From assembly GCF_018127785.1 (NCBI RefSeq), contig NZ_CP072389.1, positions 558,001-622,000 on the forward strand: 64,000 bases of DNA, read 5' to 3'. This document shows, piece after piece, positions 1,292-63,419 of the stretch. Origin of the DNA: Prevotella scopos JCM 17725 (lineage in GTDB: Bacteria > Bacteroidota > Bacteroidia > Bacteroidales > Bacteroidaceae). Within the stretch, counting starts at the first letter, position 1. The number at the start of each line of letters is the position of its first letter. A program made the position numbers and the translations under genes. The notes below the pieces were generated by a model. The model was not told where the DNA came from. It searched no databases and saw only the letters and a program-made list of their open reading frames with translations.

Positions 1292-1572
1292 GGCTCTATA
1301 ATGAATCGTGTGGGTAATTCGTCATAGAGCCTAAAATATTGTCAGAAAGTATAGCCTCCAACTAAACACAACTCCAAATTGACCTTCGTTTTAATACGTT
1401 TAACTCACATTAAATTCCTACCCTTCCATATACAGCAATGGTATTAATCCTCCGCACATGTGGTGCATACCATCCGCACCATTGGTGCTAAGCATCCGCA
1501 CCACATGTGCTAAGCGTCCGCACCAAACCGGTGGAATATCAATACACAACCCACACGATTCGTTATAGAACC
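1292..1572. mobile_element. MITE-like element, family I, copy A (281 bp) with 8-bp target duplication
   Basis: Ends are inverted repeats of about 24 bp: left GGCTCTATAATGAATCGTGT, right (reverse complement) GGTTCTATAACGAATCGTGT. It is flanked by the perfect direct repeat ATTAAAGA (1284-1291 and 1573-1580). The left end also contains its own inverted copy (bases 1292-1331). No transposase. The right half carries five 22-bp units. GG-starting ends plus 8-bp duplications are known traits of the ISL3 family, so trans-mobilisation by such a transposase is inferred. It sits between the 3' ends of gph and rlmH. Confidence 0.85.
1427..1536 (-). repeat. Family I 22-bp unit array inside MITE copy A
   Basis: Five 22-bp units at 1427-1448, 1449-1470, 1471-1492, 1493-1514 and 1515-1536. 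Units 2-4 show a dyad of CCGCAC/GCAC and GTGC around 5 variable bases (for example GCACCATTGGTGC, GCACCACATGTGC); units 1 and 5 are diverged. Labelled minus because the GTGCGG-side motif reads on the other strand. Confidence 0.85.
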
Positions 1573-1616
1573 ATTAAAGATTACTGAAACGATGAACAGA
1601 AATTTAAATGGTAAAG

Positions 1617-2087
1617 TTATTCATGATGATATGGTTCACCTTTTATAATTGTACAAGCACGATAAAGTTGTTCTGTAAAGATAAGTCTAACCATCTGATG
1701 AGAAAATGTCATACGTGACAATGAAATCTTTTCATTGGCTCTAGCATATACATTTGATGAGAAACCATATGGTCCCCCAATGACAAAAACAAGTCGTCGA
1801 GATGTATTTTGTTTTTGTTTCATCCAATTAGCATATTCTATTGAACGAAATTCTGAACCATGTTCATCCAACAACACAACCGTATCTGAAGGCTGTATTT
1901 CTTTCAAAATCAGTTCACCTTCTTTTTGTTTCTGTTGTTCTTCTGAAAGACTTTTCGTATTTTTTAATTCTGGAATTGTCGTAATACTAAAAGGCATGTA
2001 ATGCTCGATACGGCTGACGTAATCATCTATACCAACCTTAAAAATCTTATTCTGCGTTTTCCCAACAAGGATAAGAATAGTCTTCAT
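1617..2087 (-). CDS. rlmH: 23S rRNA (pseudouridine1915-N3)-methyltransferase RlmH
   Basis: 156 aa, the normal RlmH length. It methylates pseudouridine 1915 in helix 69 of 23S rRNA on assembled ribosomes, using SAM. The SPOUT alpha/beta-knot signature is visible: LLDEHGSEFRS mid-protein, FVIGGPYGFS around residues 102-111, and the C-terminal QMVRLIFTEQLYRA...KGEPYHHE that closes the knot and SAM pocket. Last gene of a leftward operon: its ATG follows the maf stop by 1 bp. The family I MITE is inserted 37-44 bp beyond the stop. Confidence 0.97.
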   Translation of the reverse strand: MKTILILVGKTQNKIFKVGIDDYVSRIEHYMPFSITTIPELKNTKSLSEEQQKQKEGELILKEIQPSDTVVLLDEHGSEFRSIEYANWMKQKQNTSRRLVFVIGGPYGFSSNVYARANEKISLSRMTFSHQMVRLIFTEQLYRACTIIKGEPYHHE

Positions 2088-2088
2088 A

Positions 2089-2652
2089 TTATAATTTCTT
2101 TATCTCTTCCCACAATCTTTGAACAGGCAATCCCATGACATTAAAGTAGCTTCCATTGATAGATGTTACGCCAACATAACCAATCCATTCTTGAATACCA
2201 TAGGAACCAGCTTTATCAAAAGGTTTGTAATGTTCAATGTAATAGTCGATTTCATCATCAGAAAGCTGCTTGAACGTCACATCAGTTGTGACAGAAAAAG
2301 AACGCTCTTTATTTATAGTCAACAAGCAAACACCCGTTGTTACCTGATGTATCCTCCCACTTATAAGCCTAAGCATACGACGTGCATCGTCAATATCTTT
2401 TGGTTTTCCAAGCACCTCATCGCCAACAATCACCACTGTATCAGCCGTAATGACAAGGTCGTCCTCCCCTATCAACGCACGATAGGGAGCTGCCTTTTTA
2501 CACGCGATGAAGCCAGCTACCTCATTGACAGACAGGTTCTTAGGGTAAGACTCATCAATGTTAGGCAATACCTTTACCTCAAAATCTAAGCCCAAGCCTG
2601 CTAAAAGTTCACGTCTTCGTGGTGAATTACTTGCAAGTATAATATGTTTCAT
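2089..2652 (-). CDS. maf: Maf family nucleoside triphosphate pyrophosphatase
   Basis: 187 aa. Maf proteins hydrolyse non-canonical or dTTP/UTP nucleotides to monophosphates as cytoplasmic house-cleaning enzymes. The N-terminal signature ASNSPRRRELL is at residues 7-17, the catalytic/metal segment TADTVV around 69-74, with GKPKD after it. The segment IDESYP after the signature fits the YhdE-like (dTTP/UTP) subgroup rather than YceF; this is inference. Cotranscribed with kdsC upstream (11-bp gap) and rlmH downstream (1-bp gap). Confidence 0.95.
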   Translation of the reverse strand: MKHIILASNSPRRRELLAGLGLDFEVKVLPNIDESYPKNLSVNEVAGFIACKKAAPYRALIGEDDLVITADTVVIVGDEVLGKPKDIDDARRMLRLISGRIHQVTTGVCLLTINKERSFSVTTDVTFKQLSDDEIDYYIEHYKPFDKAGSYGIQEWIGYVGVTSINGSYFNVMGLPVQRLWEEIKKL

Positions 2653-2663
2653 TATATAAAATT

Positions 2664-3182
2664 TTACCAGCCAAAGGCCTTCTCATTCAACACCCATTTC
2701 CCTTGCGCCTTCATCACCTGCTCTAGAATATCACGTGCAACACCATGTCCACCCTTACAATCACTGATATAAGTTGATATTTCTTTGATTTCAACACAAG
2801 CATCTTTAGGACAACAAGGACAGCCAGCACGTTTCATCACTTCATAATCAGGAATGTCATCACCTACATAGATAATTTCGTCCTCCTTCAAATCGTATTT
2901 CTGAAGGAACTCCTCCCAGGTGCGCTTCTTCATTGAACAGCTGATGTAAACATCCTTAACACCGAGATATTCGTAGCGTGAACGAATATTCTCATTATGT
3001 CCACCAGTCATAATAGCAAGCTGTAAACCATGTTTAACAGCTAACTGGATAGCATAACCATCTTTGATATTAATCGTACGAAGTGGATCGCCCTTTTCAT
3101 CCATCTGAATGGTTGAAGCAGACAGTACACCATCAACATCAAAAACAATAGCCTTTATCTTTTTTAAATCGTAGTTTATCAT
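2664..3182 (-). CDS. kdsC: 3-deoxy-D-manno-octulosonate 8-phosphate phosphatase
   Basis: 172 aa, typical capless class C0 HAD phosphatase that works as a tetramer. It removes phosphate from KDO-8-P to give KDO for lipid A core synthesis. Motifs: FDVDGVLS at residues 14-21 (nucleophile Asp), TGG near 59-61, and GDDIPD around 107-112. Its product is the substrate of KdsB, encoded divergently 1 kb away, so both late KDO steps are clustered. A 90-bp gap separates it from the upstream DUF2520 gene. Confidence 0.95.
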   Translation of the reverse strand: MINYDLKKIKAIVFDVDGVLSASTIQMDEKGDPLRTINIKDGYAIQLAVKHGLQLAIMTGGHNENIRSRYEYLGVKDVYISCSMKKRTWEEFLQKYDLKEDEIIYVGDDIPDYEVMKRAGCPCCPKDACVEIKEISTYISDCKGGHGVARDILEQVMKAQGKWVLNEKAFGW

Positions 3183-3272
3183 AAATATGAACTTCTAATA
3201 AAGAATGTAAACTCTTTTATATTAACTTATTACAATGTTTTGTTTGAGCGTATAGTCAGATTATTTATCTTT

Positions 3273-4055
3273 TTAATCAAGGGTCTCAATGTGTGGGTTA
3301 ATACCCTTAGAAAGCATTTGATAAAGCCCCTGTAAATCTTCCCTATCCTCCATCAACTTCAATTGTTGATTCATCACGTTTCTATCGCCACGTACTGCTG
3401 GCCCAGTCTGTGCTTCTTTGGGACTAATCTTGTGAATCTTATCGGTTGTCTCATCAATCAGTGGCAACATAACATCAAATGGAATTCCATGCTGAGTAAG
3501 TAGATCAGATGCCACGGAATAACAGTAATTTGTGAAATTACAAGCCCAAACAGCAGATAAATGCAGATATTTTCTTTCAGCTGAAGACAGCGTTATCACA
3601 CGCTTAGAGATTTTATAGGCAAGACGTCTAATTGCATCTTCAGTCTCTATTGAGTTACTTTCGATAAACACGGGTATGTTTTCAAAATTCACATCTTTCG
3701 TTTTAGAAAAGGTCTGCATTGGATAAAACACGCCGTAATGTTTTGTCTTTCCTTCGAAACAACTCATTGGCATAGAGCCTGCTGTATGGAGGAAAAGTTT
3801 ATCTCCCCTACCCTTACAAACTTCAGATATTAATTCACAAAGAACACTATCCTTCACAGAGAAGATATAAATATCAGCCTCATCATGAAGTTTAGCGATA
3901 TCAGTTAACCATTCCGTATCAAGTAGTTCGCCCAATGATTTTGCCGATGCTTCAGTACGGCTATATACCTGACTGATAATAACACCAACCTTCTTAAGCG
4001 ACTTGCCTAACTGTGTAGCGAGATTACCAGCCCCAATCAATGTAACTTTCATCAT
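3273..4055 (-). CDS. Rossmann-fold DUF2520 protein (ProC-like)
   Basis: About 260 aa if it starts at 4055 (ATG ATG pair at 4055/4052). An upstream ATG at 4100 would put 15 unlikely residues before the dinucleotide-binding strand. The N-terminus has a clear NAD(P)-binding motif LIGAGNLATQLG. The C-terminal half is the all-helical DUF2520 domain with the conserved RGD...N segment (RGDRNVMNQQ). Family members look like pyrroline-5-carboxylate reductase or prephenate dehydrogenase, but the substrate is not known to me. First gene of the leftward operon leading to kdsC-maf-rlmH; head-to-head with kdsB. Confidence 0.88.
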   Translation of the reverse strand: MMKVTLIGAGNLATQLGKSLKKVGVIISQVYSRTEASAKSLGELLDTEWLTDIAKLHDEADIYIFSVKDSVLCELISEVCKGRGDKLFLHTAGSMPMSCFEGKTKHYGVFYPMQTFSKTKDVNFENIPVFIESNSIETEDAIRRLAYKISKRVITLSSAERKYLHLSAVWACNFTNYCYSVASDLLTQHGIPFDVMLPLIDETTDKIHKISPKEAQTGPAVRGDRNVMNQQLKLMEDREDLQGLYQMLSKGINPHIETLD

Positions 4056-4122
4056 GCCAACAAATTTAATACTTTTAAAGGAAATATGTCCTGAACTCAT
4101 CGCCTTTTTAATAAAGATTTAC

Positions 4123-5216: not shown

Positions 5217-7271
5217 TTATTTTATCAAGCTGATAGAACGCTTAAGGAATTTGTCAAGTGCAGCTCCCTGAAGCATACCATTTTGCAGTAATGCCAAGTC
5301 AATGAGCTGATGAACGATGTCATTACCCTTAGCGTATTCTGCAACAATAGCCTTCTTCTTATTCTGAAGTTCAGAAACAGTCTTCTGCGTGTTCTGCATA
5401 TCGTCTTTCTCCTCCTGCGTCAGTTCCTCAGCCTTCTTCTTGTCCTGGGCCTGATGCAAAGCAGCAAGACGAGCCTCTTGCCCCTTAAGTTCGCTAGCTA
5501 CTGGCTTCAACTCCTCGGCTGTATTAGCAGTGACATCATCTAGTACCTTCTTAACTAATGGGTGGTCAGCATTAAGAACGAGATTATATGAATCAGGTAA
5601 CTGTCCATAGAACCCCATACCCTGCTGATACTGACTCATCTCCTTCATACGACGCATATACTCGTTCTGTGTTACAAGAACAGGCTGGAAAGCCTCTCCG
5701 AGTGACTGCACATCAATCGTGAAGTCTGCTTTTTCAATATGAGGAATCTGTGAACGGAAAGCCTCTGACAAATTGTCAGTCTCATCAGATGTCAATTTAT
5801 TTTTAGGAGTATCCTCCTTCTGAATAATACGATCAACGATATCAGAGTCAACACGTACATAGCGTGTTTTCTCCTGCTTCTGTTCAAGCATTGAAAGCAA
5901 TGGCACATCCAACTGTCCACTTGCGTCAATAACACTATAACCCTTCTGCTTTGCTGCCTCAATATAGCTATATTGTTCCTCTTTGTTATTCGTATAAAGA
6001 TTAACGAGGAAGCCATCCTTGTCAGTCTGGTTGTCCTTTACGAGTGTCTTATACTCCTCAAAGGTAAAGTACTTTCCATCAGTATCCTTGAAAAGAGCGA
6101 AGTCTTTTGCACGCTCATAGAAATCAGAATCTGAGAGCATTCCATAATTAATGAAAAGCTTCAAGTCGTCCCACTTCTCTTCAAACTCTTTACGATTTTC
6201 CTTAAAGATACTTTGCAGACGATCAGCTACCTTCTTAGAAATATAGGTTGATATCTTCTTCACGTTAGAATCACTCTGCAAGTAACTACGGCTCACGTTC
6301 AGAGGAATATCTGGAGAGTCTATGACACCATGAAGCAAAGTAAGGAACTCTGGTACAATCCCCTCAACCTGATCGGTCACGAATACCTGGTTGCAATAGA
6401 GTTGAATCTTATTACGCTGTAGTTCGATGTTGTTCTTCACACGTGGGAAATAGAGAATACCCGTGAGGTTGAATGGATAATCAACATTTAGATGAATCCA
6501 GAATAATGGTTCCTCATTCATTGGGAAGAGTGTACGATAGAAGCTCTTGTAATCCTCACCTTTCAATGTAGATGGTGCCTTAACCCACAATGGATCAATA
6601 CTATTGATTACATTATCTTCATCTGTATCGACCATCTTGCCGTCTTTCCACTCTGTCTTCTTACCAAAGACGATAGGAACAGCCATGAACTTACAATACT
6701 TATTCAGCAGCTCTTCAATCTTTGATTTCTGAAGGAACTCCTTGCAGTCATCATCGATATAAAGAACGATATCACTACCGCGTTTTGTCTTGTCAGTATC
6801 TTCAAGCGTATATTCTGGGCTACCATCACAGCTCCATTTCACGGCCTGGCTACCTTCTTTGTAACTCTTTGTTATAATCTCAACTTTCTTGGCTACCATA
6901 AAGGCAGAATAGAAACCAAGACCGAAGTGACCAATAATAGCTTCAGCTTTGTCTTGATACTTCTCGAGGAAGTCGTTGACACCAGAGAATGCAATCTGGT
7001 TGATATACTTCTCTATCTCCTCAGCAGTCATACCAATACCATGGTCGCTGATAGTCAATGTCCCTGCTTTCTCATCCAAGTTAACACGGACACTTAAATC
7101 GCCTAACTCGCCTTTAAACTCGCCTATTACAGAAAGCGTTTTCAGTTTCTGCGTTGCATCAACTGCGTTTGATACCATTTCACGCAAGAAGATGTCATGA
7201 TCAGAATATAAGAACTTTTTGATAACGGGGAAAATGTTCTCTGTTGTAACCCCAATATTTCCTTTTTGCAT
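5217..7271 (-). CDS. htpG: Molecular chaperone HtpG (bacterial Hsp90)
   Basis: 684 aa, close to the length of Bacteroidota HtpG (E. coli 624). ATP-dependent cytoplasmic chaperone working as a dimer. N-terminal GHKL ATPase motifs are complete: FLREMVSNAVDA (residues about 29-40), SDHGIGM, and GHFGLGFYSAF. Middle domain has NVSRSYLQ with the catalytic-loop arginine. The C-terminal dimerisation domain carries a Lys/Glu-rich helical insertion. Monocistronic, with terminators on both sides. Confidence 0.97.
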   Translation of the reverse strand: MQKGNIGVTTENIFPVIKKFLYSDHDIFLREMVSNAVDATQKLKTLSVIGEFKGELGDLSVRVNLDEKAGTLTISDHGIGMTAEEIEKYINQIAFSGVNDFLEKYQDKAEAIIGHFGLGFYSAFMVAKKVEIITKSYKEGSQAVKWSCDGSPEYTLEDTDKTKRGSDIVLYIDDDCKEFLQKSKIEELLNKYCKFMAVPIVFGKKTEWKDGKMVDTDEDNVINSIDPLWVKAPSTLKGEDYKSFYRTLFPMNEEPLFWIHLNVDYPFNLTGILYFPRVKNNIELQRNKIQLYCNQVFVTDQVEGIVPEFLTLLHGVIDSPDIPLNVSRSYLQSDSNVKKISTYISKKVADRLQSIFKENRKEFEEKWDDLKLFINYGMLSDSDFYERAKDFALFKDTDGKYFTFEEYKTLVKDNQTDKDGFLVNLYTNNKEEQYSYIEAAKQKGYSVIDASGQLDVPLLSMLEQKQEKTRYVRVDSDIVDRIIQKEDTPKNKLTSDETDNLSEAFRSQIPHIEKADFTIDVQSLGEAFQPVLVTQNEYMRRMKEMSQYQQGMGFYGQLPDSYNLVLNADHPLVKKVLDDVTANTAEELKPVASELKGQEARLAALHQAQDKKKAEELTQEEKDDMQNTQKTVSELQNKKKAIVAEYAKGNDIVHQLIDLALLQNGMLQGAALDKFLKRSISLIK

Positions 7272-7377
7272 AGCAATATAATTTGTTTATACTTTTATTT
7301 TTGCAGGGTATATAACAAACTCCGTGCCATGATAAGTAAACACAAGTAACTTTTCAACTACGAAGTAATAGAATTAA

Positions 7378-10021: not shown

Positions 10022-10109
10022 CATCCGCACATGTGGTGCGGACGCCCAACACTAATGGTGCGGACGCCCAACACAAGTGGTGCGGAGGGTAAACACAAAT
10101 GCTGTTGAA
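10022..10109 (+). repeat. Family I array without MITE ends (copy B)
   Basis: Four 22-bp units at 10022-10043, 10044-10065, 10066-10087 and 10088-10109. Unit 1 holds the perfect 6-bp dyad CCGCAC-ATGTG-GTGCGG. Units 2-3 share GCCCAACACnAnTGGTGCGG. No terminal inverted repeats or target duplication could be found around it. Confidence 0.8.
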
Positions 10110-10788: not shown

Positions 10789-10875
10789 GGAAGGATGGGT
10801 GAGTGGCTGAAACCAGCAGTTTGCTAAACTGCCGTGCGCATTCGCGTACCGGGGGTTCGAATCCCCCTCCTTCCG
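10789..10875 (+). tRNA. tRNA-Ser (GCU anticodon)
   Basis: 87 nt without encoded CCA. Acceptor GGAAGGA pairs with TCCTTCC, discriminator G. Anticodon loop TTGCTAA gives GCU (serine AGC/AGU). The long variable arm (GTGCGCATTCGCGTAC) is typical of class II tRNA-Ser. T-arm GGGGGTTCGAATCCCCC is perfect. Confidence 0.95.
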
Positions 10876-10903
10876 CTTTATCTCATTCCCTCAAATGTAT
10901 TTT

Positions 10904-10975
10904 GGTCGATTCATCTAACGGTTAGGATACAAGATTCTCAATCTTGGCATAGGGGTTCGATTCCCCTATCGACTA
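10904..10975 (+). tRNA. tRNA-Glu (CUC anticodon), copy 1
   Basis: 72 nt. Acceptor GGTCGAT pairs with ATCGACT (first pair G-U), D-arm TCTAACGGTTAGGA, anticodon loop TTCTCAA giving CUC for GAG, T-arm GGGGTTCGATTCCCC. Identical to the copy at 11007. No encoded CCA. Confidence 0.93.
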
Positions 10976-11006
10976 CAAAACAAACTCTTAATGGGAAAAA
11001 CATTCT

Positions 11007-11078
11007 GGTCGATTCATCTAACGGTTAGGATACAAGATTCTCAATCTTGGCATAGGGGTTCGATTCCCCTATCGACTA
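11007..11078 (+). tRNA. tRNA-Glu (CUC anticodon), copy 2
   Basis: Identical over all 72 nt to the copy at 10904, with an unrelated 31-bp spacer between them. Followed within 5 bases by a terminator that ends the cluster. Confidence 0.93.
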
Positions 11079-11780: not shown

Positions 11781-13772
11781 TTAAAGCGTCTGATACTCAC
11801 GAGAGTAACGAAGCATCTGTTCTGTATAAGTTTCCGAGTAATCAACATTAATATCAATCAACTCGCCTTGTTTGTTATATACGGGGGTAAGCACAGGGTT
11901 AATAAACCCTTTATAAGGCGCTATATTCAATCGTTCGTATCTACGGAGAACCTCTGTGTGAAGAGTAGGATCAAGATTGATAGCATATTTCTCAACTAAC
12001 ATTCGTGCAGCCTCAAAGTCACCTTCGCTCTTGATACGCTGTATCTCAGCAAGTTGTTTAGCAAAGATATGACGTAAGGCAACATAATCATTGATACGAA
12101 CGAAAGTTTTTGATTCATTGTTCGCTTTGTCTTCGCAAGAAATAAGTTCTACAACATTATTATCCTTACCTAACTCCATTGCCCATTGTGCGATAAGTGC
12201 ACGATTCTGCATATGTGATTCTTCTATTTGCTTTCCAGGTTTAATACGAACCTGCTGAGTCAGCAAACCGTTCATCATATAGCCATAATATTGTGCTTTA
12301 TAGGCCTCATTACTATCCAAAAGTCCTAAATCTAAAAGCTTTTGGTCGGCTATATAGTATAAGCCAAAGAGGTCAGCACGTGCCTCTTCTATCGTATTAC
12401 CATAGTTTTTCAGTGCATCAGGATCTGTTCCTGGCAATAATCGTCCACTACCATGGCCTAAACATTCGTGCAAGTCTGTATGTAGATTATCCGTTTTGTC
12501 AGCATACAAATCCATCAACTTACGCATGTCAGAATCAATGACAAACTCCTCACGAAACCCATTACCCCTGGCTGCCATATCATAGGCATGAGTAAGATTA
12601 GATATTGTTACACTCTTTGAACCATATTCAGCACGAATCCAATCAGCATTTGGTAAATTAATTCCAATAGCTGAAGATGGATATTCATCACCGCCTAACA
12701 TTGCTGCACAAATAACATTAGCGGTAACACCTTTCACAACCTTTTTGCGAAAAATAGGATTAACAGGAGAATGATCTTCAAACCATTGTGCGTTATCAGA
12801 TATTGCCTGTGTACGATGAGTGGCTTCAAGATCCTTATATTCAACTATGCCTTCCCAAGAACCTTTCAATCCCATTGGGTCACCATAGACTTCAATAAAA
12901 CCATTAATGAAATCTATTCTACCTTCTTGTTCACGTAACCACTCAATAGAATAAACATCAAAATCATGTAAATCACCTGTTTCATAATAGCGAATAAGCA
13001 GGTTAATTACTTTGAGTTGCTGTTCGTTTTCTACATAGTCTTTTGCTCGCATTAACCAGTATATAATCTTTGTAATCGCAGAACCATATTTGCCATCTAC
13101 TTTCCATACATCTTCACGAATGGACTTTCCTTCTTTGACAAGAGTTGAATTCAAACCATAAGATGGTGCTTCGTCTTTTGGTCCTTCTTTCTTCAATCTT
13201 GCATAGAATTCTTCAACGTCATTCTGAGATACTCCATCGTAATAATTACATGCAGAAGAGCGAACAATATCTTTTCCATCAGCCTTATCTACTCTCTTTG
13301 GCAGAATAGTTGGATCAAAGATTACAGGACAAAGTTCGTTGAGTAAAGAAGAAACTGTCTCCCCTTCTCTTAGAGGAAGATACTTAGAATCAATCGATAA
13401 GACCTCTTTATTAAAGAAATCTTCAGTGAATGAAGGTGAAAACTTATCACAAGCATAGTGATGATAAATACCATTAGCAAACCAAACGTGCTTCAGATAT
13501 TCTTCTAAAGCACGAAAGTTGTTATCTTCCCGATCACCTTTATAGTTCAAATAGACAGCCTCTAACATCTTTCTTATTCGGAGGTTATACTTACCAAATT
13601 GGTCAAATGTGATATCACGACCAAACAAAGTAGCCTCTGACAGACAATAAATTAGTTGCTTTTGCCGAGTTGTTAATGCTTCGAAACCAGAAAGCTGATA
13701 ACGAAGCATTTGAATATCAGCGAACCGTTCATCCTGAAAATTAAATTTTTCTTCTCCTTTTGATTCTATCAT
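11781..13772 (-). CDS. Dipeptidyl peptidase III (M49 metallopeptidase)
   Basis: 663 aa. Zinc exopeptidase releasing dipeptides from the N-terminus of oligopeptides. Catalytic motifs HECLGH (around residue 435; the bacterial six-residue form of HEXXGH) and the second zinc/Glu motif EEARAD (around 460) are intact. No signal peptide is present, unlike lipoprotein DPP III relatives in some Bacteroides, so a cytoplasmic site is inferred. It follows an AraC-type regulator gene with a 7-bp gap in the same operon. Confidence 0.93.
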   Translation of the reverse strand: MIESKGEEKFNFQDERFADIQMLRYQLSGFEALTTRQKQLIYCLSEATLFGRDITFDQFGKYNLRIRKMLEAVYLNYKGDREDNNFRALEEYLKHVWFANGIYHHYACDKFSPSFTEDFFNKEVLSIDSKYLPLREGETVSSLLNELCPVIFDPTILPKRVDKADGKDIVRSSACNYYDGVSQNDVEEFYARLKKEGPKDEAPSYGLNSTLVKEGKSIREDVWKVDGKYGSAITKIIYWLMRAKDYVENEQQLKVINLLIRYYETGDLHDFDVYSIEWLREQEGRIDFINGFIEVYGDPMGLKGSWEGIVEYKDLEATHRTQAISDNAQWFEDHSPVNPIFRKKVVKGVTANVICAAMLGGDEYPSSAIGINLPNADWIRAEYGSKSVTISNLTHAYDMAARGNGFREEFVIDSDMRKLMDLYADKTDNLHTDLHECLGHGSGRLLPGTDPDALKNYGNTIEEARADLFGLYYIADQKLLDLGLLDSNEAYKAQYYGYMMNGLLTQQVRIKPGKQIEESHMQNRALIAQWAMELGKDNNVVELISCEDKANNESKTFVRINDYVALRHIFAKQLAEIQRIKSEGDFEAARMLVEKYAINLDPTLHTEVLRRYERLNIAPYKGFINPVLTPVYNKQGELIDINVDYSETYTEQMLRYSREYQTL

Positions 13773-16670: not shown

Positions 16671-16758
16671 AGCTTTAAAAAGATGTCATACAGGCTTCTA
16701 AAAGGTGCCCTTTTAGAGTCTTGTTAACGCCCTTCAAGGCCCTTGTTAACGCTCTTTT
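16671..16758 (-). repeat. Family II array, four 22-bp units (copy 2, inverted)
   Basis: On the minus strand the units are 16758-16737, 16736-16715, 16714-16693 and 16692-16671. They align unit by unit with 1003-1090: units 1-2 share (A/G)GGCGTTAACAAG in place of GGGCCTTAGTAAG, unit 3 AAAAGGGCAnCTTTTA is nearly identical, and unit 4 keeps the AAGCT end. Upstream TTTGTAA and TTCTAAA are also shared, so the homologous block is a little longer than the array. Confidence 0.78.
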
Positions 16759-27971: not shown

Positions 27972-27984
27972 ATTGATAAATATT

Positions 27985-28109
27985 AAATTCATAATTCTAA
28001 ATTCATAATTTTGATAAGAACTGTTCAGTGCTTAAAACCTAATACGCTCTAATGGTATATCAAAGAATAGTAATCATAATTATGAATTATGAATTATGAA
28101 TTATGAATT
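27985..28109. repeat. ATGAATT iterons bracketing the purC-ubiE gap
   Basis: Right side: four to five head-to-tail copies of the 7-mer ATGAATT (about 28074-28109), ending eight bases before the ubiE start. Left side: two inverted copies in ATTCATAATTCTAAATTCAT (27986-28005). The two blocks can pair as long AT-rich arms around about 65 bases. Confidence 0.7.
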
Positions 28110-28117
28110 AAACAAAT

Positions 28118-28852
28118 ATGTACGAACAGGAAAAGATAAAACCCTACGATGGCGATGGCGAGAAAGGCAAACTCATTGAAAAGATGTTTGACAATATCGC
28201 ACCAACTTACGACACCCTTAATCACCGTCTTTCAGGAAATATTGATAAAGGATGGCGCAAGAAAGCAATCCATCAACTACTTCCTTTCCACCCCAAGATG
28301 ATGCTTGACATTGCAACAGGTACTGGAGACTTTGCCATTCTTGCTGCCAAAGAATTAAAACCTAAACAGCTCATCGGTGCAGATATTTCTGAAGGGATGA
28401 TGGCTATTGGTCGTGAGAAGGTGAAAGCAGCTGGTCTAAGTGATGTCATTTTTTTCCAGAAAGAGGATTGTACGGACCTCTCTTTTCCTGACAACACGTT
28501 TGATGCTGTGACTGCAGCATTCGGTATTCGTAACTTCCAAAACCTTGATAAAGGGCTAGCAGAGATTTGTCGTGTACTGAAGAAGGGCGGACATCTGAGC
28601 ATTGTCGAACTAACTACACCCGTGAAGTTTCCAATGAAACAGCTTTTCCGTTTCTATTCTAACACTTTCCTTCTCAACTACGCAAAATTTATCTCTAAAG
28701 ATAAAAGTGCTTACGAGTACCTTAACAAAACTGTTGAGGCATTCCCACAAGGTGAAAAAATGATGGATATATTCCACAAAGCAGGCTTTGCGAAAAGCTC
28801 TTTTCGTCGATTGACATTCGGCATCTGTACAATGTATTTTGCGGAGAAATAA
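28118..28852 (+). CDS. ubiE: Demethylmenaquinone methyltransferase (UbiE/MenG)
   Basis: 244 aa class I SAM methyltransferase. It methylates demethylmenaquinol to menaquinol, the anaerobic respiratory quinone of this phylum. UbiE signatures: [16 protein letters not shown] near residue 25 and [17 protein letters not shown] mid-protein; SAM motif [11 protein letters not shown] about 66-75. Because Bacteroidota make menaquinone only, the MenG reaction is the expected one. 21 bp upstream of aroE. Confidence 0.95.
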
Positions 28853-29631: not shown

Positions 29632-29912
29632 GGCTCTAGGACGAGGTTTGTGGGTAATTTGTCATAGAGCCTAAAAATGTGTCAAAAAGTATAGTATCGA
29701 ACTAAACAAAACTCCTGATTGAGCTTAGTTTTAAAACGCTTAACTCACATTAAATCCCTACTCTTTCATTTACAGCAATGGTGCTGACCCTTCGCACATG
29801 TGGTGCATACCATCCGCACCATAAGTGTTAAGCACCCGCACCACATGTGCTAAGCACCCGCACCAAACCGGTGGAAAATCAACACAGAACCCACACGATT
29901 CTTTCTAGGGTC
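29632..29912. mobile_element. MITE-like element, family I, copy C (about 281 bp)
   Basis: Aligns along its whole length with copy A. Left end GGCTCTAGGACGAGGTTTGT, right end (reverse complement) GACCCTAGAAAGAATCGTGT; ends more diverged than in A and F. Flanks share AAAAAG, possibly a decayed target duplication, but this is simple sequence. Lies directly behind aroE and before the convergent galE terminator. Confidence 0.8.
29767..29876 (-). repeat. Family I 22-bp unit array inside MITE copy C
   Basis: Five units at 29767-29788, 29789-29810, 29811-29832, 29833-29854 and 29855-29876. Unit 4 is CACCCGCACCACATGTGCTA-AG, nearly identical to the matching unit of copy A, and the last keeps GCACCAAACCGGTGG. 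Confidence 0.85.
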
Positions 29913-40086: not shown

Positions 40087-40152
40087 GCCCCGCACCAATG
40101 GTGCAGAGGCTTCGCACAGTATGTGCGGGTGCTTAGCACCAAACGTGATGAA
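40087..40152 (+). repeat. Family I array without MITE ends (copy D)
   Basis: Three clear 22-bp units at 40087-40108, 40109-40130 and 40131-40152 (GCACCAATGGTGC, GCACAGTATGTGC, then GCACCAAACGTGA), perhaps with a decayed unit before. No terminal repeats. Between convergent rsh and PBP genes. Confidence 0.75.
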
Positions 40153-49619: not shown

Positions 49620-50044
49620 ATTATGGATATTGGGGAATGTTTCTATCAGCATTCCTAGCAGGAAGTTTCTTACCTTTTAGTAGCGAGGCTGTAATGCTTG
49701 CGTTGCTTGCTGCTGGAGTAGATCCAGTCTTATTACTTATTTATGGAAGTATTGGTAACGTCCTAGGTGGAATGTTTAATTATGGCCTTGGTAGATTAGG
49801 CAAGCTTGAATGGCTTGAGCGTTACTTCCATGTGAAGCAAGCATCCTTAGATAGAGCTTATCGTTTTATGGGTGGACGCGGTGCTTGGATGGGATTCTTT
49901 GCTTTTCTTCCAATTTTGGGTAGTGCGATAACTATTGTGCTCGGTCTCACACGTGCTAACATTGCCCTGTCAGTATTGAGTATTACAACTGGTAAAGTGC
50001 TGCGTTATGCAGTACTTATTTGGGGAGCAAACTTCCTTTTTTAG
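49592..50044 (+). CDS. YqaA-family membrane protein (DedA-like)
   Basis: 150 aa. Short relative of DedA/SNARE-associated proteins, with FLAGSFLPFSSEAVMLALLAAG near residue 20-41 (the conserved Pro-Glu segment), GNVLGGMFNYGLGR and GGRGAWMGFFAFLPILGS. DedA proteins are linked to lipid-carrier flipping and envelope homeostasis; YqaA's role is not defined. The start overlaps the preceding gene by 28 bp. Confidence 0.9.
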   Translation: MDFLTQLLVDYGYWGMFLSAFLAGSFLPFSSEAVMLALLAAGVDPVLLLIYGSIGNVLGGMFNYGLGRLGKLEWLERYFHVKQASLDRAYRFMGGRGAWMGFFAFLPILGSAITIVLGLTRANIALSVLSITTGKVLRYAVLIWGANFLF

Positions 50045-50163
50045 GTTGCCTGGTATTAGAAAGATAAAAGTATATCTTGTATTTAGAACTACAGAGTCAT
50101 CGAACGCAATGAGCAAAGAACAATCTTACACAGACGTAAACCATCTTTTGTTGTATTGCTGAT

Positions 50164-50251
50164 ATTCTTTAATTTTGGTGCGGAGGCTTAGCACTAGTTG
50201 TGCGGAGGCTCAACACAAGTGGTGCGGAGGGTATGCACCACATGTGTGGAG
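50164..50251 (+). repeat. Family I array without MITE ends (copy E)
   Basis: Units at 50164-50185 (left half decayed), 50186-50207, 50208-50229 and 50230-50251. Dyads GCACTAGTTGTGC, CACAAGTGGTG, GCACCACATGTG; linkers CGGAGGCT(T/C)A. About 80 bp to the left of family III copy 2. Confidence 0.8.
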
Positions 50252-50329
50252 AGCTAAACTAATCATGATACATTGATGACTTAGGATATATTGTGGGTAA
50301 ACCATTGTAAAACAAAGGATAACTACTAA

Positions 50330-50815
50330 AGCTGCTTACTAGCCAGAATAGTGGTAAACAATACTCGTTAGATATATTTTTTAAAATTATCAGTTACTTG
50401 CATGCTATGGCACTATCGGTCTCTGCACTATAGGCTCCTCCATGATGTGTCGTTTAACTCTGTGTCTTCTATTCTCTGGATGCCAAATGATGTTTTGAGA
50501 CTTGCGTTCATCACTTCATGTTTTGGAAAAGAAGAAGTCTATAACTATTAGCCGATTCTGTTTTACCAGATAACTCATAAATTTAAGTTCCTGTCACTCC
50601 TGTCATTTATTACAAGTGTTTAACTTATTATATTTCAGAAAGATGTGTGAAATGTTAAAAATGACAGCAACTTAAAATAAAACTAATCTTGTTTTTATGC
50701 GATATTTTTTTTCTTATTTTTGAATACTTGTTATTCCAAAATAAGAAAGTACTTTTTATCATTAACCTTTTGTATGCTTATTTCTCCACTTTTTTTCCTA
50801 CTAAGCCCATCAAAC
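50330..50815 (+). repeat. Family III degenerate repeat (copy 2)
   Basis: Aligns by eye with 11168-11690. The inverted arms TTTAAGTTCCTGTCA (50582-50596) and TGACAGCAACTTAAA (50662-50676) pair at 14 of 15 positions although their outer bases differ from copy 1, so both arms changed together. No coding potential. Confidence 0.75.
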
Positions 50816-51002
50816 CTAGTACGAAGATAAGGTAAAGATTATGCTAAAGTAGAAAGCATGATGATTTTATTATACCTTATTTATGTACCAATCGAGATCA
50901 TTTTATCCAAACGATACCCCTTAGAACCTTATTTCTTTATCAAACGTTACTAAAAGCGAAAAACTTTCTTCCTAAGATGTGGTTATATTCAGATTTTATT
51001 TT

Positions 51003-51010
51003 TATCTTTG
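51003..51010 (+). promoter_or_regulatory. -7 element for fhs
   Basis: TATCTTTG, 29 bases before the ATG at 51040; no clear -33. Confidence 0.6.
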
Positions 51011-51039
51011 CGATTATTACTTTAAAAAAGAAAATAACT

Positions 51040-52707
51040 ATGAAATCTGACATCGAAATTGCACGCTCATGTAAAATGAAGCCTATTGAGGAAGTAGCAG
51101 CAACGGTAGGAATTCCAGCTGATGCTTTAGAGAACTATGGTAAGTATATGGCGAAAGTTCCTCTTTCATTAATTAATGAAGAGAAGGTTGCCAACAATCG
51201 TCTTGTTCTTGTTAGTTCAATCTCCCCTACCCGAGCTGGTATCGGAAAGACGACTGTTAGTATTGGTTTATCAATGGCCTTAAATCGTATAGGTAAGCGT
51301 TCTGTCCTTGCCTTACGCGAACCTAGTCTAGGTCCTTGTTTCGGTATGAAAGGTGGAGCTGCAGGTGGTGGCTATGCTCAGGTTGTACCAATGGAGAAGA
51401 TTAACCTTCATTTTACTGGTGACTTCCATGCCATTACGAGTGCACATGACATGATTGCAGCCTTGCTTGACAACTATATTTATCAGCACCGTAGTGAAGG
51501 TTTTGCATTAAAACAGGTTCTCTGGAAACGCGTCTTAGACGTGAATGATCGTAGCCTACGCAACATTGTTACAGGCTTAGGAGCTACAACAGATGGTTTG
51601 CCAACACAATCTGGCTTCGATATCACACCTGCTAGTGAGATTATGGCAGCACTATGTCTTGCTGATAGTGAAGAAGACCTTCGTCGTCGTATTGAGAATA
51701 TGGTTTTAGGTATTACCTTTGATGATAAACCATTTAGAGTACGTGACCTTGGTGTTGCAGGAGCAATAACAGTTCTCTTATTGGATGCTATTAAACCAAA
51801 CCTTGTTCAGACACTTGAAGGTACACCAGCCTTTGTTCATGGTGGTCCATTTGCTAACATAGCCCATGGCTGTAACAGTTTGGTTGCTACGAAGATGGCA
51901 ATGTCGCTAAGTGATTATGCTATTACTGAAGCTGGTTTCGGTGCAGATCTCGGTGCAGAGAAGTTTATGGACATCAAGTGTCGTAAAGCAAATATACATC
52001 CTCGTGCCACTGTCCTTGTTTCTACTCTACGTGGTCTGAAGATGCATGGTGGACTTGTTGATGGTGCTTCACACGAACAGGAGCGTCAGGCACTTATTGA
52101 TGGCTTTGCTAATCTTGATCGTCATGTTGAGAACATGCAGCGTTTTGGGCAGCCTGTGATTGTAACACTTAACAGATATGGCGACGATACAGAGGAAGAA
52201 ATAGTTCTTCTCGCTGAACATTGTAAGACGTTGGGTGTTGGTTTTGCAGAAAACAACGTATTCTTGAAAGGCGGTGAAGGTGCTGAAGACTTAGCTCGTC
52301 TTGTTGTTGAAACGATTGATAAACATGGAGCAAAAGAAATCAACATGGTTTATTCAGATGATGATAGCATCGAAGATAAGGTAAACAAGATTGCCAAGAA
52401 TATTTATGGCGCACACTCTGTGATCCTTCAGAAGTCAGCAAAGAATAAGCTTGCACGTATTAAAGCGTGGGGAATGGATCGTTTCCCTGTATGCATTGCT
52501 AAAACACAATTCTCATTCAGTGAAGATCCAAAACAAGTTGGCGTTGCTAAAAACTTTGATATTACCATACGCGACTTTGTTATCAATGGAGGTTCAGAGA
52601 TGATTGTTGCTATTGTTGGCGAAATTATGCGTATGCCTGGTTTACCAAAGGTACCACAAGCTGAAAAAATTGATATCGTAAATGGTCAGATTGAAGGTTT
52701 GGCTTAA
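51040..52707 (+). CDS. fhs: Formate-tetrahydrofolate ligase
   Basis: 555 aa from the ATG at 51040; the ATG at 50977 lies before the promoter. ATP-dependent formation of 10-formyl-THF from formate, reversible. P-loop-like [14 protein letters not shown] near residue 66, [15 protein letters not shown], and [13 protein letters not shown]. Together with FtcD (methenyl-THF from histidine) it could recover formate and ATP from one-carbon units, as in histidine-fermenting anaerobes; that coupling is inference. Confidence 0.96.
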
Positions 52708-55055: not shown

Positions 55056-55736
55056 ATGAAGAAAAAAATATTACTTAGCCTCTTTTTCACACTTACTACC
55101 CTCTCAATTCATGCTCAAGATGTTACATATCATGGCTCAAAACATTACAGAATCAAAGTGAATCAGTTCAAACAAGAGGGTCCATTACCCGATAATGCTA
55201 TTGTCATGTTAGGAGATAGTCATTCTGAATATGGAAAGGACTGGAATCGTTTCTTTCCTAATGCGAGAAAGATTATCAACAGAGGCATAATTGGTGATGA
55301 TAGTCGAGGTATCTCGAAACGCTTAGATCAGATTTTACCTTATCACCCCAGCAAAATATTCTTTGAATGTGGGACAAATGATTTAAGTCATGGGTGGTCT
55401 GTTGAACGTTCTTTTCAAGGTATCATTAGTATCATTGATACGATTCTAAAAACATGTCCAAACACTAAACTTTATGTACAAAGTCTTCTTCCTTTTAATG
55501 AGAATGTAGGTGTATGGAAACTACTTAAAGGTAAGGAGGATATGATAATTCAACTAAATGAGAGATTAAAGGACTATTGCAAACATAAGAAACTTGTTTT
55601 TATCGATCTATATCATCCTCTTTTAGGAACACAAGCTAAGACAATGCATCCTGCCTATTGTCGCGACGGATTGCATCTTACGAATAAAGGTTATGAGGTA
55701 TGGGCGAACACCATTCATTCTTATATCAATGAATAA
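55056..55736 (+). CDS. SGNH/GDSL hydrolase, exported
   Basis: 226 aa. Signal peptide about 1-20 (ILLSLFFTLTTLSIHAQ). Block I MLGDSHSEYG (Ser nucleophile), block III GTNDLSHG, block V RDGLHLTNKGY (Asp and His). Closest in type to PAF-acetylhydrolase/sialate esterase-like lipases; substrate unknown. Monocistronic. Confidence 0.9.
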   Translation: MKKKILLSLFFTLTTLSIHAQDVTYHGSKHYRIKVNQFKQEGPLPDNAIVMLGDSHSEYGKDWNRFFPNARKIINRGIIGDDSRGISKRLDQILPYHPSKIFFECGTNDLSHGWSVERSFQGIISIIDTILKTCPNTKLYVQSLLPFNENVGVWKLLKGKEDMIIQLNERLKDYCKHKKLVFIDLYHPLLGTQAKTMHPAYCRDGLHLTNKGYEVWANTIHSYINE

Positions 55737-60138: not shown

Positions 60139-60160
60139 ATCAGTTCTATACTATACCACC

Positions 60161-61585: not shown

Positions 61586-61593
61586 AATGGCAG

Positions 61594-61652
61594 CAAAATT
61601 ACGAAAAATATTATCATTTCATGCAATTAAGAAATCTTATTTTGTAACTTTG
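61594..61652. promoter_or_regulatory. Divergent promoters, symporter and trpB2 genes
   Basis: Leftward TAATTTTG (complement of 61594-61601), only about nine bases from the symporter ATG, implying a very short or absent leader; rightward TAACTTTG (61645-61652), 53 bases before trpB2. Confidence 0.55.
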
Positions 61653-61704
61653 TAGAATATCATCTTTCAAGAAACATTCATCCATTGTATAATTGAGTAA
61701 CGGT

Positions 61705-63066
61705 ATGGCACAACAGAAAAGATTTATACTTGACGAAAAAGATATCCCTACCCAGTGGTATAATATTCAGGCAGACATGCCAACGAAACCTCTTCCTCCA
61801 CTCCACCCTGGTACGCATAAACCATTGAAAGCAAAAGATCTGGCTGAAATATTCAGTTTAGAATGTTCCAAACAAGAGCTTGATACAGAGCATGCTTGGA
61901 TAGATATTCCAGAAGAAGTGTTGGATATGTATAAATATTATCGTTCCACACCGCTCGTTCGTGCGTATGCGTTGGAGAAAGCATTAGATACCCCTGCACA
62001 TATTTATTTCAAGAATGAAAGTGTAAACCCACTTGGCTCACATAAGGTCAATTCTGCCATCCCTCAATGTTATTACTGTAAAAAAGAAGGTGTAACAAAC
62101 GTTACAACTGAGACAGGAGCAGGTCAATGGGGAGCTGCCTTATCATATGCAGCTAAAGTATATGGACTTGAGGCTGCAGTTTATCAGGTAAAGATATCTA
62201 TGCAACAGAAGCCTTATCGTTCAATGATAATGAGGACTTTTGGAGCCATGGTAGAAGGTTCTCCATCAATGTCAACACGTGCAGGAAAGGATATCGTTAC
62301 ACGCGACCCAATACATCTGGGTTCGTTGGGAACAGCTATCTCAGAGGCTATTGAGTTGGCAAGGACCACACCTAATTGTAAGTACACCTTAGGTTCAGTA
62401 CTCAATCACGTTGCATTGCACCAAACGATTATAGGTTTGGAAGCAGAAAAGCAAATGGAAATGGCTGAAGAATATCCCGATAAGGTGATTGCCTGCTTTG
62501 GTGGTGGTAGTAATTTCGGTGGTATTGCATTTCCATTTATGCGCCACAATATCCTTGAAGGAAAGAATACAGAGTTTATCGCAGCAGAGCCAAACAGCTG
62601 TCCAAAACTGACACGTGGTAAGTTTGAATACGACTTCGGTGATGAAGCGGGTTACACTCCATTGTTACCGATGTTCACGCTTGGCCATGATTTCAAGCCT
62701 GCAAATATCCATGCAGGGGGGTTACGCTATCATGGTGCAGGCGTTATTGTGAGTCAGCTGCTAAAGGATGGCTATATGACTGGAATGGATATACCACAAT
62801 TGGAAAGTTTTGAAGCTGGTATTCTTTTCTCTCGTACAGAAGGAGTCATCCCTGCACCCGAAAGCTGTCATGCTATTGCTGCAGCTATTCGAGAAGCAAA
62901 GAAGGCAAAGGAAATAGGAAAAGAAGATGTTATCCTCTTCTGTCTTTCTGGTCATGGACTCATTGACATGACTGCTTATGACACTTATATTAATGGTGAC
63001 TTGAGAAACTATACGATTTCTGATGAAGAAATCGAGAAGAATCTTGGTACTGTTCCAAAGGTGTGA
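61705..63066 (+). CDS. TrpB2-type tryptophan synthase beta-like enzyme
   Basis: 453 aa from the ATG at 61705 (a TTG at 61693 is upstream). PLP enzyme making tryptophan from indole and serine. PLP lysine in LGSHKVNSA; GAGQWG; phosphate loop CFGGGSNFGG. Length and the N-terminal extension (WYNIQADMP, PLPPLHPGT) mark the TrpB2 class, which does not pair tightly with TrpA; no trp genes adjoin. It may salvage free indole (inference). Confidence 0.93.
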   Translation: MAQQKRFILDEKDIPTQWYNIQADMPTKPLPPLHPGTHKPLKAKDLAEIFSLECSKQELDTEHAWIDIPEEVLDMYKYYRSTPLVRAYALEKALDTPAHIYFKNESVNPLGSHKVNSAIPQCYYCKKEGVTNVTTETGAGQWGAALSYAAKVYGLEAAVYQVKISMQQKPYRSMIMRTFGAMVEGSPSMSTRAGKDIVTRDPIHLGSLGTAISEAIELARTTPNCKYTLGSVLNHVALHQTIIGLEAEKQMEMAEEYPDKVIACFGGGSNFGGIAFPFMRHNILEGKNTEFIAAEPNSCPKLTRGKFEYDFGDEAGYTPLLPMFTLGHDFKPANIHAGGLRYHGAGVIVSQLLKDGYMTGMDIPQLESFEAGILFSRTEGVIPAPESCHAIAAAIREAKKAKEIGKEDVILFCLSGHGLIDMTAYDTYINGDLRNYTISDEEIEKNLGTVPKV

Positions 63067-63109
63067 AGGCTAGGCGATTACACCTACACTTATAATGCTA
63101 TAAAATTAA

Positions 63110-63149
63110 AGCCACTTTGTAGATAACGCTACAAAGTGGCTGTTTATAT
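63110..63149 (+). terminator. Terminator of trpB2, interrupted by the MITE
   Basis: Perfect 13-bp stem AGCCACTTTGTAG / CTACAAAGTGGCT, then GTTTATAT, which is also the left target duplication of MITE copy F. The element therefore landed in the terminator tail. Confidence 0.88.
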
Positions 63150-63419
63150 GGTTCTATAACGAATCGTGTCGGTTGTGTATTGATATTCCACCGGTTTGGT
63201 GCGGGTGCTTAGCACATGTCGTGCGGGTGCTTAGCACCAATGGTGCGGATGGTATGCACCACATGTGCTAAGGATTAACACCATTGCTGTATATGAAAGG
63301 GTAGGAATTAAATGTGCGTCAAGCGTATTAAAACTAAGGTCAATTTGGAGTTGTGTTTAGTTTTTTGACAATATTTTTAGGCTCTATAACGAATTACCCA
63401 CACAATTCGTTATTGAGCT
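63150..63419. mobile_element. MITE-like element, family I, copy F (270 bp) with 8-bp target duplication
   Basis: Inverted relative to copy A. Left end GGTTCTATAACGAATCGTGT, right end (reverse complement) AGCTCAATAACGAATTGTGT. Flanked by perfect direct repeats GTTTATAT (63142-63149 and 63420-63427). The right end also contains a self-inverted segment (63380-63417), matching the left end of copy A. Lies between the convergent trpB2 and pantothenate kinase genes. Confidence 0.85.
63186..63295 (+). repeat. Family I 22-bp unit array inside MITE copy F
   Basis: Five units at 63186-63207, 63208-63229, 63230-63251, 63252-63273 and 63274-63295, with dyads GCACATGTCGTGC, GCACCAATGGTGC, GCACCACATGTGC and linkers GGGTGCTTA / GGATGGTAT. 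Confidence 0.85.

Follow-up and report, generated by a model that had tools for sequence, protein, structure and literature searches.

Inspection of the nucleotide sequence of the window (the whole 64-kb stretch of Prevotella scopos JCM 17725 that was analysed) revealed all six arrays listed in the initial annotation; in six of six the units lie head to tail at a constant length of 22 bp (Table 1). Tandem Repeats Finder returned period 22 for five of them (1451-1525, 10034-10101, 29814-29865, 50176-50230 and 63197-63248). The array at 40087-40152 was not reported by this program, and inspection placed GCAC at 40092, 40114 and 40136. The motif GCAC-N5-GTGC matched 12 times in the window against a shuffle mean of 0.40 (largest shuffle, 2) and CCGCAC 26 times against 8.93 expected, while CCGCACNANNNGTG gave 261 matches genome-wide (135+126) and its reversed-pattern control none. 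The annotation placed both half-sites in each unit, but not all units have the pair: CAACAC replaces GCAC in the 10022 array and once in the 50164 array. Further 22-bp repeats of other sequence, absent from its list, are also present in the window, the one at 16707-16756 being weak. A CRISPR array was considered and rejected, since on inspection the units are contiguous, with no unique spacers, and the columns of centre and linker retain some conservation.

Table 1. Positions of the 22-bp repeats and MITE copies in the window
Position	Strand	Feature	Remarks
1001..1054		22-bp array, different family (CTAAAAGGGCCTTAGTAAGACC)	Tandem Repeats Finder
1292..1572		MITE copy carrying the 1427 array	TIR matches 1292-1313 and 1551-1572, GGCTCTATAACGAATCGTGTGG-like; 273-bp element
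1427..1536	+	GCAC-family 22-bp array inside MITE	three full units and part-units
10022..10109	-	GCAC-family 22-bp array, free-standing	300 bp on either side free of listed MITE ends
16707..16756		segment of other sequence with weak 22-bp periodicity	score 12.4 (threshold 12)
29767..29876	+	22-bp array, GCAC family; surrounding MITE copy decayed	a single TIR identified
40087..40152		GCAC-family 22-bp array, free-standing	roughly three units
50164..50251	-	GCAC-family 22-bp array, free-standing	no TIR match nearby
55109..55149		22-bp tandem pair, other sequence (TCATGCTCAAAACATTACATA)	Tandem Repeats Finder
63150..63419		MITE copy carrying the 63186 array	TIR matches 63150-63171 and 63398-63419; 262-bp element
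63186..63295	-	GCAC-family 22-bp array inside MITE	three units

Comparison of neighbouring units bore out the earlier observation that the half-sites are kept and the centres vary. Within the GCAC family, differences between adjacent units amount to 7.5% over the eight GCAC/GTGC positions and to 31% over the remaining ones (42 arrays without a nearby TIR, n=55 adjacent-unit pairs), the register being set by a profile from anchored units, which biases the comparison toward conserved arms. In the same 42 arrays CAC and GTG differ at 0-2% and the final C of GTGC at 45%.

Array places and their association with a MITE

Three of the six window arrays (1427, 29767 and 63186) lie inside MITE copies and the other three outside. 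Analysis of all array places in the own genome (n=125) indicated a TIR within 300 bp of at least 55 (at least 30 on both sides and 25 on one side) and, among the matches listed, none within 300 bp of 70, these counts resting on 100 of 111 TIR matches. The MITE carries the array and has spread along with it, which is shown here as an association. The idea that the arrays exist solely since one MITE carried one array around draws on the places near a TIR, and also on 29 places without a listed TIR that nonetheless have flanks in common with the MITE group, among the 68 of 70 that were fetched (the remaining two being inside the window). Against it, 39 of 80 sampled array stretches share no flank with any other, a possible MITE end was seen in at most 2 of 16 sampled array places from four sister genomes, leaving at least 14 without one, and unrelated 22-bp families occur across Prevotellaceae (see below). 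Carriage by a single MITE is very improbable as the sole cause, and as a complete account it is refuted. The initial annotation had allowed that the arrays might occur only inside intact MITEs; free-standing arrays and sister arrays without a MITE end show otherwise. Because sister arrays are found without the MITE, the element probably captured a pre-existing array in this species.

Length steps of an 11-bp half-unit among MITE copies were rejected: the 262- and 273-bp elements have the same three units, and therefore the length step lies outside the array. In four TIR-matching stretches without an obvious partner, no transposase was recognised by eye in the first 60 ORF residues. Viral carriers were likewise rejected, the 73 stretches recovered each having a single 14-mer match that was read as chance.

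REP/BIME elements with RAYT transposases are short dispersed intergenic dyads and are not known to be arranged in a tandem 22-bp register. Movement of REP/BIME-like elements by a RAYT (TnpA-REP) transposase would explain why short dyads are scattered between the genes of one genome, but a search for Y1_Tnp (PF01797) that was positive in 5 of 14 control genomes returned nothing from the own genome, and this origin is scarcely credible.

The GCAC family is limited to a small Prevotella group and is mostly intergenic in the own genome, where the arrays have no orientation preference relative to the gene strand (16 same, 18 opposite). In the window five of six arrays lie between convergent ORFs; a preference for convergent ORFs was not found in the own genome (14/59 arrays vs 29%). 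The spacing of arrays along the chromosomes is near random (interval CV 0.84 and 0.93), and 52 of 118 arrays match the sign of the local GC skew, interpolated from 24 sampled stretches. A replichore-linked orientation was not upheld by the complete listing of a narrower pattern. Near-random spacing and the lack of a gene-context preference in the own genome are expected also for neutral repeats.

Comparison with sister genomes revealed that the array places differ between the window and related species at both loci compared. Five sister genomes hold a different 22-bp array family in the intergenic region of 40087-40152, while three (94-98% alike) hold a GCAC-family array elsewhere within the region of 50164-50251. 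Two of five sister stretches contain places that match positions 891-1134, around the 1001-1054 array. Three genomes 94-98% alike differ inside a GCAC array by a single gain or loss of 22 bp, and MITE copies have about 0, 2 or 3 units, so that copy number changes by whole units, as in minisatellites.

Period and dyad geometry in Prevotellaceae

Intergenic DNA of Prevotellaceae, with genes masked by a simple ORF caller and not by annotation, showed 22 bp as the commonest tandem-repeat period, in unit sequences that are unrelated. Among the 145 best periodic intergenic segments, a set that includes sister genomes and is not independent, 69 were at period 22, 10 at 44 and 10 at 23, the next period, 14, having 13. 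The stretches L001-L080 alone gave 38 of 101 segments at period 22. In a hold-out of 20 further stretches from genomes of the genus, hand-picked from those listed as 99% complete (two yielded only short contigs, and species overlap with L001-L080 is possible), 22 was again the commonest period (8/32 segments). A Markov-1 null of L001-L080 and the hold-out produced 14 segments, 0 at 22. From an additional set (26 of 30 loci used, own and sister loci left out), 15 same-genus loci gave 4 segments, 2 of them at 22, and only 2.1 kb from other genera of the same family gave 1 segment, at 22. Elsewhere in the order, 40 stretches representing 16 further families (48.6 kb of intergenic DNA) contained 17 periodic segments, 1 at 22, and 26 kb of E. 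coli contained 0. Little DNA from beyond the genus was compared, and confinement of the class to Prevotellaceae is therefore at most tentative.

Before the dyad tests, segments scoring <15 in two analyses and <13 in two others were dropped, together with arrays of <2 full units and arrays with >=4 11-mers common to an earlier array. The mean dyad score of 56 arrays was 4.93 against 3.75 (sd 0.12) for the column-permuted null, a value reached by 0 of 200 permutations; the 8 hold-out arrays scored 4.75 against 3.40, again with 0/200. A dyad at p<=0.05 was found in 13/47, 16/47 and 13/46 arrays in three analyses, not every array being clear, and 27 of 51 arrays are without a perfect arm of 5 bp.

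Base-centred dyads are over-represented in the units. A count of perfect arms of >=5 bp gave 52 axes, where letter shuffles predict 19.0; odd-length loops (1, 3, 5, 7, 9) accounted for 38 axes vs 7.3 expected and even loops of 0-10 for 14 vs 9.0, in a set to which arrays L401 and L407 were added by hand after inspection, only L407 having an arm. Loops of 3, 5 and 7 were found at 9, 11 and 9 axes (1.3-1.4 expected each), and 4-base loops at 4 (1.4 expected). Several families (L003, L407) agree with a fixed 6-5-6-5 layout, but it is no general rule; 3-, 5- and 7-base loops are all common.

Arms also diverge more slowly than the rest of the unit. Adjacent units of the 56 arrays, mostly unrelated sequences chosen without the GCAC profile, differed at 222/1254 arm positions vs 344/1276 others (0/200 permutations), and those of the hold-out at 25/186 vs 48/210 (2/200). 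Array by array, arms were slower than the rest in 36 and faster in 17; the hold-out split of 5 slower and 3 faster is reached by 58 of 200 permutations. The slower arms are a contrast of rates and not proof of function.

RNA, neutral and DNA-binding readings

The initial annotation had also read the arrays as strings of small RNA hairpins. For most of the 12 arrays tested, both strands do fold better than their dinucleotide shuffles (24 strands, z ranging from -1.0 to -9.8, 18/24 between -3 and -6), while the proposed covariation of the half-sites was not seen: there is none within the GCAC family, and across families 8 compensatory changes were counted against a null mean of 5.5, with 40 of 200 permutations reaching 8. 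On these two grounds the RNA-stem reading is without covariation support. If the arrays were transcribed at gene ends, their hairpin strings or nested stacks might stabilise or terminate transcripts. In agreement with this, the 22/23-bp arrays of L001-L080 lie between convergent ORFs in 20/50 cases (26.5% expected, p=0.037), are rare in divergent regions (6/50 vs 28%, p=0.011) and are closer to stops than to starts (medians 102 vs 238 bp), and sister arrays, from genomes that are not independent, are convergent in 16/30 (31.5% expected, p=0.017). However, no such enrichment was found in the own genome, including its 22/23-bp set (6/22 vs 28.4%), or in the hold-out (2/10 vs 19.7%), and both the absence of a strand preference and the smaller excess of 4-base loops than of loops of 3, 5 and 7 count against RNA. 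A role at the RNA level is unlikely; a weak convergent-gene preference may exist outside this species, where the L001-L080 and sister sets exceed expectation. A terminator scan of 49900-51100 only returned one terminator-like site, at 50022, outside the 50164 array.

Non-functional dyad minisatellites would arise by slipped-strand expansion of hairpin-prone units, with template switching from one arm to the other mending imperfect palindromes and so keeping the arms alike, and with chance recombination and MITEs dispersing the arrays. The near-random spacing, the absence of a context or orientation rule in the own genome, the unit-wise copy change, array places not common to the window and its sisters at the two loci, the strong folding on both strands of most arrays tested and the absence of any known RNA family (Rfam) at the window arrays are all consistent with neutrality. 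It leaves unexplained, however, why sequences without relationship should have a common 22-bp period and why odd loops are favoured over even ones, and the sharing of GCAC-type arrays by three sisters at one locus and of another family's array by five sisters at the second also argues against it. We consider a purely neutral origin somewhat unlikely.

The reading tentatively favoured here is that the arrays belong to one family of Prevotellaceae-wide short intergenic dyad minisatellites in which a dimeric protein would recognise the dyad as DNA. The unit is a 22-bp module in which, in many families, a half-site of 5-8 bp alternates with its own reverse complement, so that base-centred dyad axes recur 11 bp apart, as the statistics show. 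Placement of the dyads on nearly one helix face, proposed in the initial annotation, would be a geometric consequence of the spacing. Arrays change by whole 22-bp units (one close-relative case and the MITE copies of differing unit number) and their places differ between related species (two loci). In families that are mostly unrelated in sequence, the arms vary less from one unit to the next than do loops and linkers. A dimeric DNA-binding protein may recognise the dyad and tile the array in register, and its preferred sequence would drift between lineages together with the putative protein. The absence of a strand rule and the odd-loop excess mean that DNA recognition fits at least as well as RNA. 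It counts against this reading that unit sequences are highly different between lineages, and therefore a single protein cannot serve all arrays. In a more specific form of DNA recognition, which is rather unlikely, a fast-evolving dimeric DNA-binding protein or structure-specific factor would coat intergenic dyad arrays lineage-wide, with the geometry fixed and a sequence 'dialect' in each lineage; if so, dyads would be spaced two helical turns apart while their sequence turns over between lineages.

Described repeats and significance

A literature search found nothing on 22-bp arrays in Prevotella. The statement of the initial annotation that no described system has such a form was nevertheless too strong, because BrickBuilt of Porphyromonas gingivalis (Klein et al. 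2015, PMC4596501) is described as a 23-nt minisatellite in a MITE, and on that description it is the closest precedent. Its tandem units are reported as always intergenic, with some copies in a MITE and others without leader or tail, with unit number varying between strains and with predicted stem-loops, and no species other than P. gingivalis and P. gulae is reported to carry it (PMC4596501). The likeness (unit length near 22, intergenic position, a minisatellite trapped in a MITE) is one of kind and not homology. BrickBuilt differs in belonging to another genus and in its TIRs, which by eye in Table 2 of PMC4596501 are of the GAGACCTTTGCA type, IS5-like, vs GGCTCTATAACGAATCGTGTGG here, and the parts of its description drawn on here give no cross-family common period, dyad rule or arm constraint. 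The same paper mentions 22-, 23- and 41-nt tandem direct repeats in P. gingivalis W83; judged from this mention alone, the 22-nt repeats resemble the present arrays in unit length and belong to the same order. PINSR of Prevotella intermedia/nigrescens (Naito et al. 2015, PMC4755523), intergenic, with 177 and 184 copies in two strains and not a MITE, is similarly an intergenic repeat amplified within one Prevotella clade; compared by description, it differs in being one 188-bp repeat for which no 22-bp unit is mentioned in the part of the source used here.

Bacterial intergenic repeats are usually catalogued by sequence family, whereas here it is the geometry that appears conserved: a unit length of 22 bp and, in many cases, base-centred dyads recur in sequences with little else in common. 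This would provide an annotation rule for a large share of the intergenic tandem repeats of Prevotella, and BrickBuilt, as it is described, might then be one instance of something more widespread. For a group that comprises a large set of human and animal commensals, it raises the testable question of which protein, whether an enzyme or one that binds DNA, sets the two-turn register of this intergenic DNA.

GCAC-family arrays in Prevotella scopos and its relatives

Inspection of the window revealed a 22-bp repeat at all six positions at which the initial annotation had placed arrays of GCAC-N5-GTGC units, and this motif was matched 12 times in the window against 0.40 expected. The pattern CCGCACNANNNGTG gave 261 matches across the whole 3.3-Mb genome and its reversed form gave 0. 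The merged match lists of several pattern searches indicated at least 125 array places in the genome, a lower bound that misses degenerate units and may include some single chance matches. The arrays were spaced approximately at random, and the anchor fell within an ORF of at least 300 bp in 7 of 79 fetched stretches, some of these being single chance matches or spurious ORFs.

The scan of Prevotella genomes proposed at the outset detected the stricter GCAC-family pattern in 5 of 398 genus genomes, namely P. scopos (94 matches) and the sister genomes G158 (20), G172 (15), G374 (14) and G336 (3). A looser pattern gave 29 matches against 2 for controls in Prevotella jejuni (G040), the nearest named relative (94% identity over the one protein compared), and 2-7 in each of nine other genomes searched alongside, at or near control counts. 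Since counts in 39 other relatives were also at control level, the GCAC family appears confined to a small clade.

Coordinates and units of the arrays and neighbouring features
Stretch	Position	Feature	Remarks
Window	1427-1536; 10022-10109; 29767-29876; 40087-40152; 50164-50251; 63186-63295	GCAC-family arrays	22-bp units
Window	1001-1054	22-bp array, second family	surrounding sequence 891-1134
Window	10789-11078	three consecutive tRNA genes	103 bp separate the second from the third, which have equal scores; probably the source of the 103-bp peak in the window autocorrelation
Window	28078-28110	AATTATG, 4.7 perfect copies, 7-bp period	just upstream of ORF at 28118; could be a slippage-variable promoter
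Window	27984-28010	14-bp repeat	adjoins AATTATG repeat
L003 (Prevotellaceae locus)		unit TTCCCA-ACGGC-TGGGAA
L005 (Prevotellaceae locus)		unit ATTATACAAACGTGTATAA	even loop
L012 (Segatella maculosa)	6988-7345	23-bp-period array; example unit at this locus ACAAGT-CCTAT-ACTTGT	at least 3 unlike 23-bp unit types adjacent in one register, as if register were kept rather than sequence
L066 (Prevotellaceae locus)		unit TTCCATATCAGCTGGAA
L071 (distant Prevotellaceae MAG)	13421-13491	22-bp unit CTCCGCACATCGTGCGGAG	half-sites identical to window GCAC family, by chance or common origin
L358 (further stretch)	about 1290-1365	free-standing array	the two ends form an inverted repeat of about 13 bp, which allows the entire array to fold as one long stem
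L379 (further stretch)	2-88	22-bp array	one unit a perfect 20-bp palindrome (TTGGCAGCGGCCGCTGCCAA)
L407 (further stretch)		unit ATGAAT-GGCCT-ATTCAT

Relation to the MITE and turnover among sister genomes

Three of the window arrays sit in a MITE, an element with terminal inverted repeats (TIRs), of which two copies measure 273 and 262 bp between the terminal repeats and the third is decayed. MITE copies carried 3 or 2 units, and one carried essentially none. TIRs, from 100 of the 111 TIR matches, lay within 300 bp of the 125 array places on both sides in 30, on one side in 25 and on neither in 70. The fetched stretches numbered 80 and comprised 68 that had no listed TIR, 11 that had one and a single MITE lacking a full array; 41 of them had flanking sequence in common, and the other 39 had none. 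A possible TIR (up to 4 mismatches) was present in at most 2 of 16 array places in four sister genomes, 4 of these places being without a periodic segment. The array places without TIR or shared flanks, together with the sister places, mostly without TIR, thus show that the GCAC-family array is independent of the MITE, and the arrays are not restricted to intact MITEs, a case that the initial annotation had named as a refutation. Most likely the MITE trapped one array; no autonomous partner was recognised by eye among the ORFs, over their first 60 residues, of four stretches with TIR matches.

The window is collinear from 30.3 to 55.7 kb with stretches of G158, G172, G374 and G040 and from 33.5 to 50.0 kb with G336. 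None of the five sisters has the 40.1-kb array of the window; each has at that site a 22-bp array from a different family (AAAAGGGC type), which was scored as periodic in four genomes and read from the alignment in G374. At 50.2 kb, three sisters (G158, G172 and G374) have a GCAC-type array elsewhere within this intergenic region. The long alignment blocks of these three genomes are 94-98% alike and, in alignments longer than 2 kb (larger differences that end alignments fall outside the count), contain two distinct indels of at least 8 bp, which measure 14 bp and exactly 22 bp; the latter, counted in two pairs, is one unit gained or lost in a GCAC array of G374. The second 22-bp family of the window may also be dispersed, since the sequence around its array matched places in two of the five sister stretches at 69-72% identity.

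The 22-bp period in Prevotellaceae intergenic DNA

Because TRF and the sister alignment had yielded unrelated 22-bp arrays, we determined the period spectrum of intergenic DNA, using 201,804 bp drawn from the window, the five sisters and 80 Prevotellaceae loci (L001-L080). The best tandem period of the 145 regions was 22 in 69, 44 in 10, 23 in 10 and 14 in 13. The 80 loci by themselves (101 segments) gave 22 in 38, 44 in 6 and 23 in 9, and 29 of them contained a segment at 22 or 44. Period 22 was found in 17 of 39 cases in 400 kb sampled from P. scopos and in 8 of 32 in a hold-out of 20 further stretches from genus genomes (14 in 5, 21 in 3). A Markov-1 null built from these 80 loci and the hold-out gave 14 segments, 0 at 22; a 48,614-bp control from 16 other families of the order gave 17, one at 22, and 26,077 bp of E. 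coli K-12 gave none at any period. Other genera of the same family, represented by 2,086 bp, gave one weak segment, at 22. The unit sequences of different arrays have little in common besides geometry.

Similar objects are known. BrickBuilt of Porphyromonas gingivalis is an object of this kind whose 23-nt units lie within a MITE (PMC4596501), and its description also mentions 22-nt repeats of P. gingivalis W83. A different Prevotella clade has amplified PINSR, a repeat of 188 bp (PMC4755523). The open-licence literature, outside which most subscription journals lie, yielded no description of a shared 22-bp dyad period.

Dyad symmetry, genomic context and proposed mechanism

Three tests against permuted columns or letters placed 13 of 47, 16 of 47 and 13 of 46 arrays at p<=0.05 for dyad symmetry. 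The mean dyad score of 56 non-redundant arrays was 4.93 against 3.75 (sd 0.12) after permutation, a value reached by 0 of 200 permutations, and eight hold-out arrays agreed on the excess. Perfect arms of at least 5 bp were located at 52 axes, where 19.0 were expected; every dyad on the 22-bp circle contributes two axes to this count. Odd loops of 1-9 gave 38 axes (7.3 expected) and even loops of 0-10 gave 14 (9.0 expected). Such an arm was absent from 27 of 51 arrays.

Neighbouring units differed in 222 of 1254 comparisons at arm positions and in 344 of 1276 at other positions, a contrast reached by 0 of 200 permutations, and the hold-out gave 25/186 and 48/210 (2/200). At the level of single arrays, 36 had slower arms and 17 had faster ones (1/200); in the hold-out the split was 5 to 3 (58/200). 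Compensatory changes across arrays were not in excess, and paired columns of the GCAC family paired no more than composition predicts. Judged from these slower arms without covariation excess, the arms resemble a conserved recognition sequence more than freely covarying stems; of the initial idea of half-sites kept as a bound site or stem, the lower rate of change in the arms was borne out and the covariation was not.

Arrays of P. scopos showed no preference for convergent regions (14/59 vs 29%), for GC-skew sign (52/118 agree) or for the orientation of tandem genes (same strand in 16, opposite in 18). Arrays of L001-L080 somewhat favoured convergent regions (20/50 vs 26.5%, p=0.037), avoided divergent ones (6/50 vs 28%, p=0.011) and lay closer to stops than to starts, a trend also seen in the sisters, which are not independent, but not in the hold-out or P. 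scopos. Rfam gave no match at the window arrays, and folding of 12 arrays on both strands gave z of -1.0 to -9.8. The main rival explanation, itself plausible, is a neutral minisatellite driven by hairpins.

The GCAC-family arrays are a real feature and the finding is larger than the initial annotation stated; unless a dedicated binding system emerges, they rank as a variant of the known MITE-associated minisatellites. They consist of tandem units that change unit by unit, and the wider set of 22-bp arrays has an excess of odd-loop dyads and slower arms. We propose that the arrays would expand by slipped-strand events or unequal exchange and that the dyad would be recognised. Recognition as DNA is likelier than as RNA, given the lack of covariation and of a strand preference and the greater excess of odd loops compared with four-base loops. 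A putative binding protein would drift together with the array sequence.
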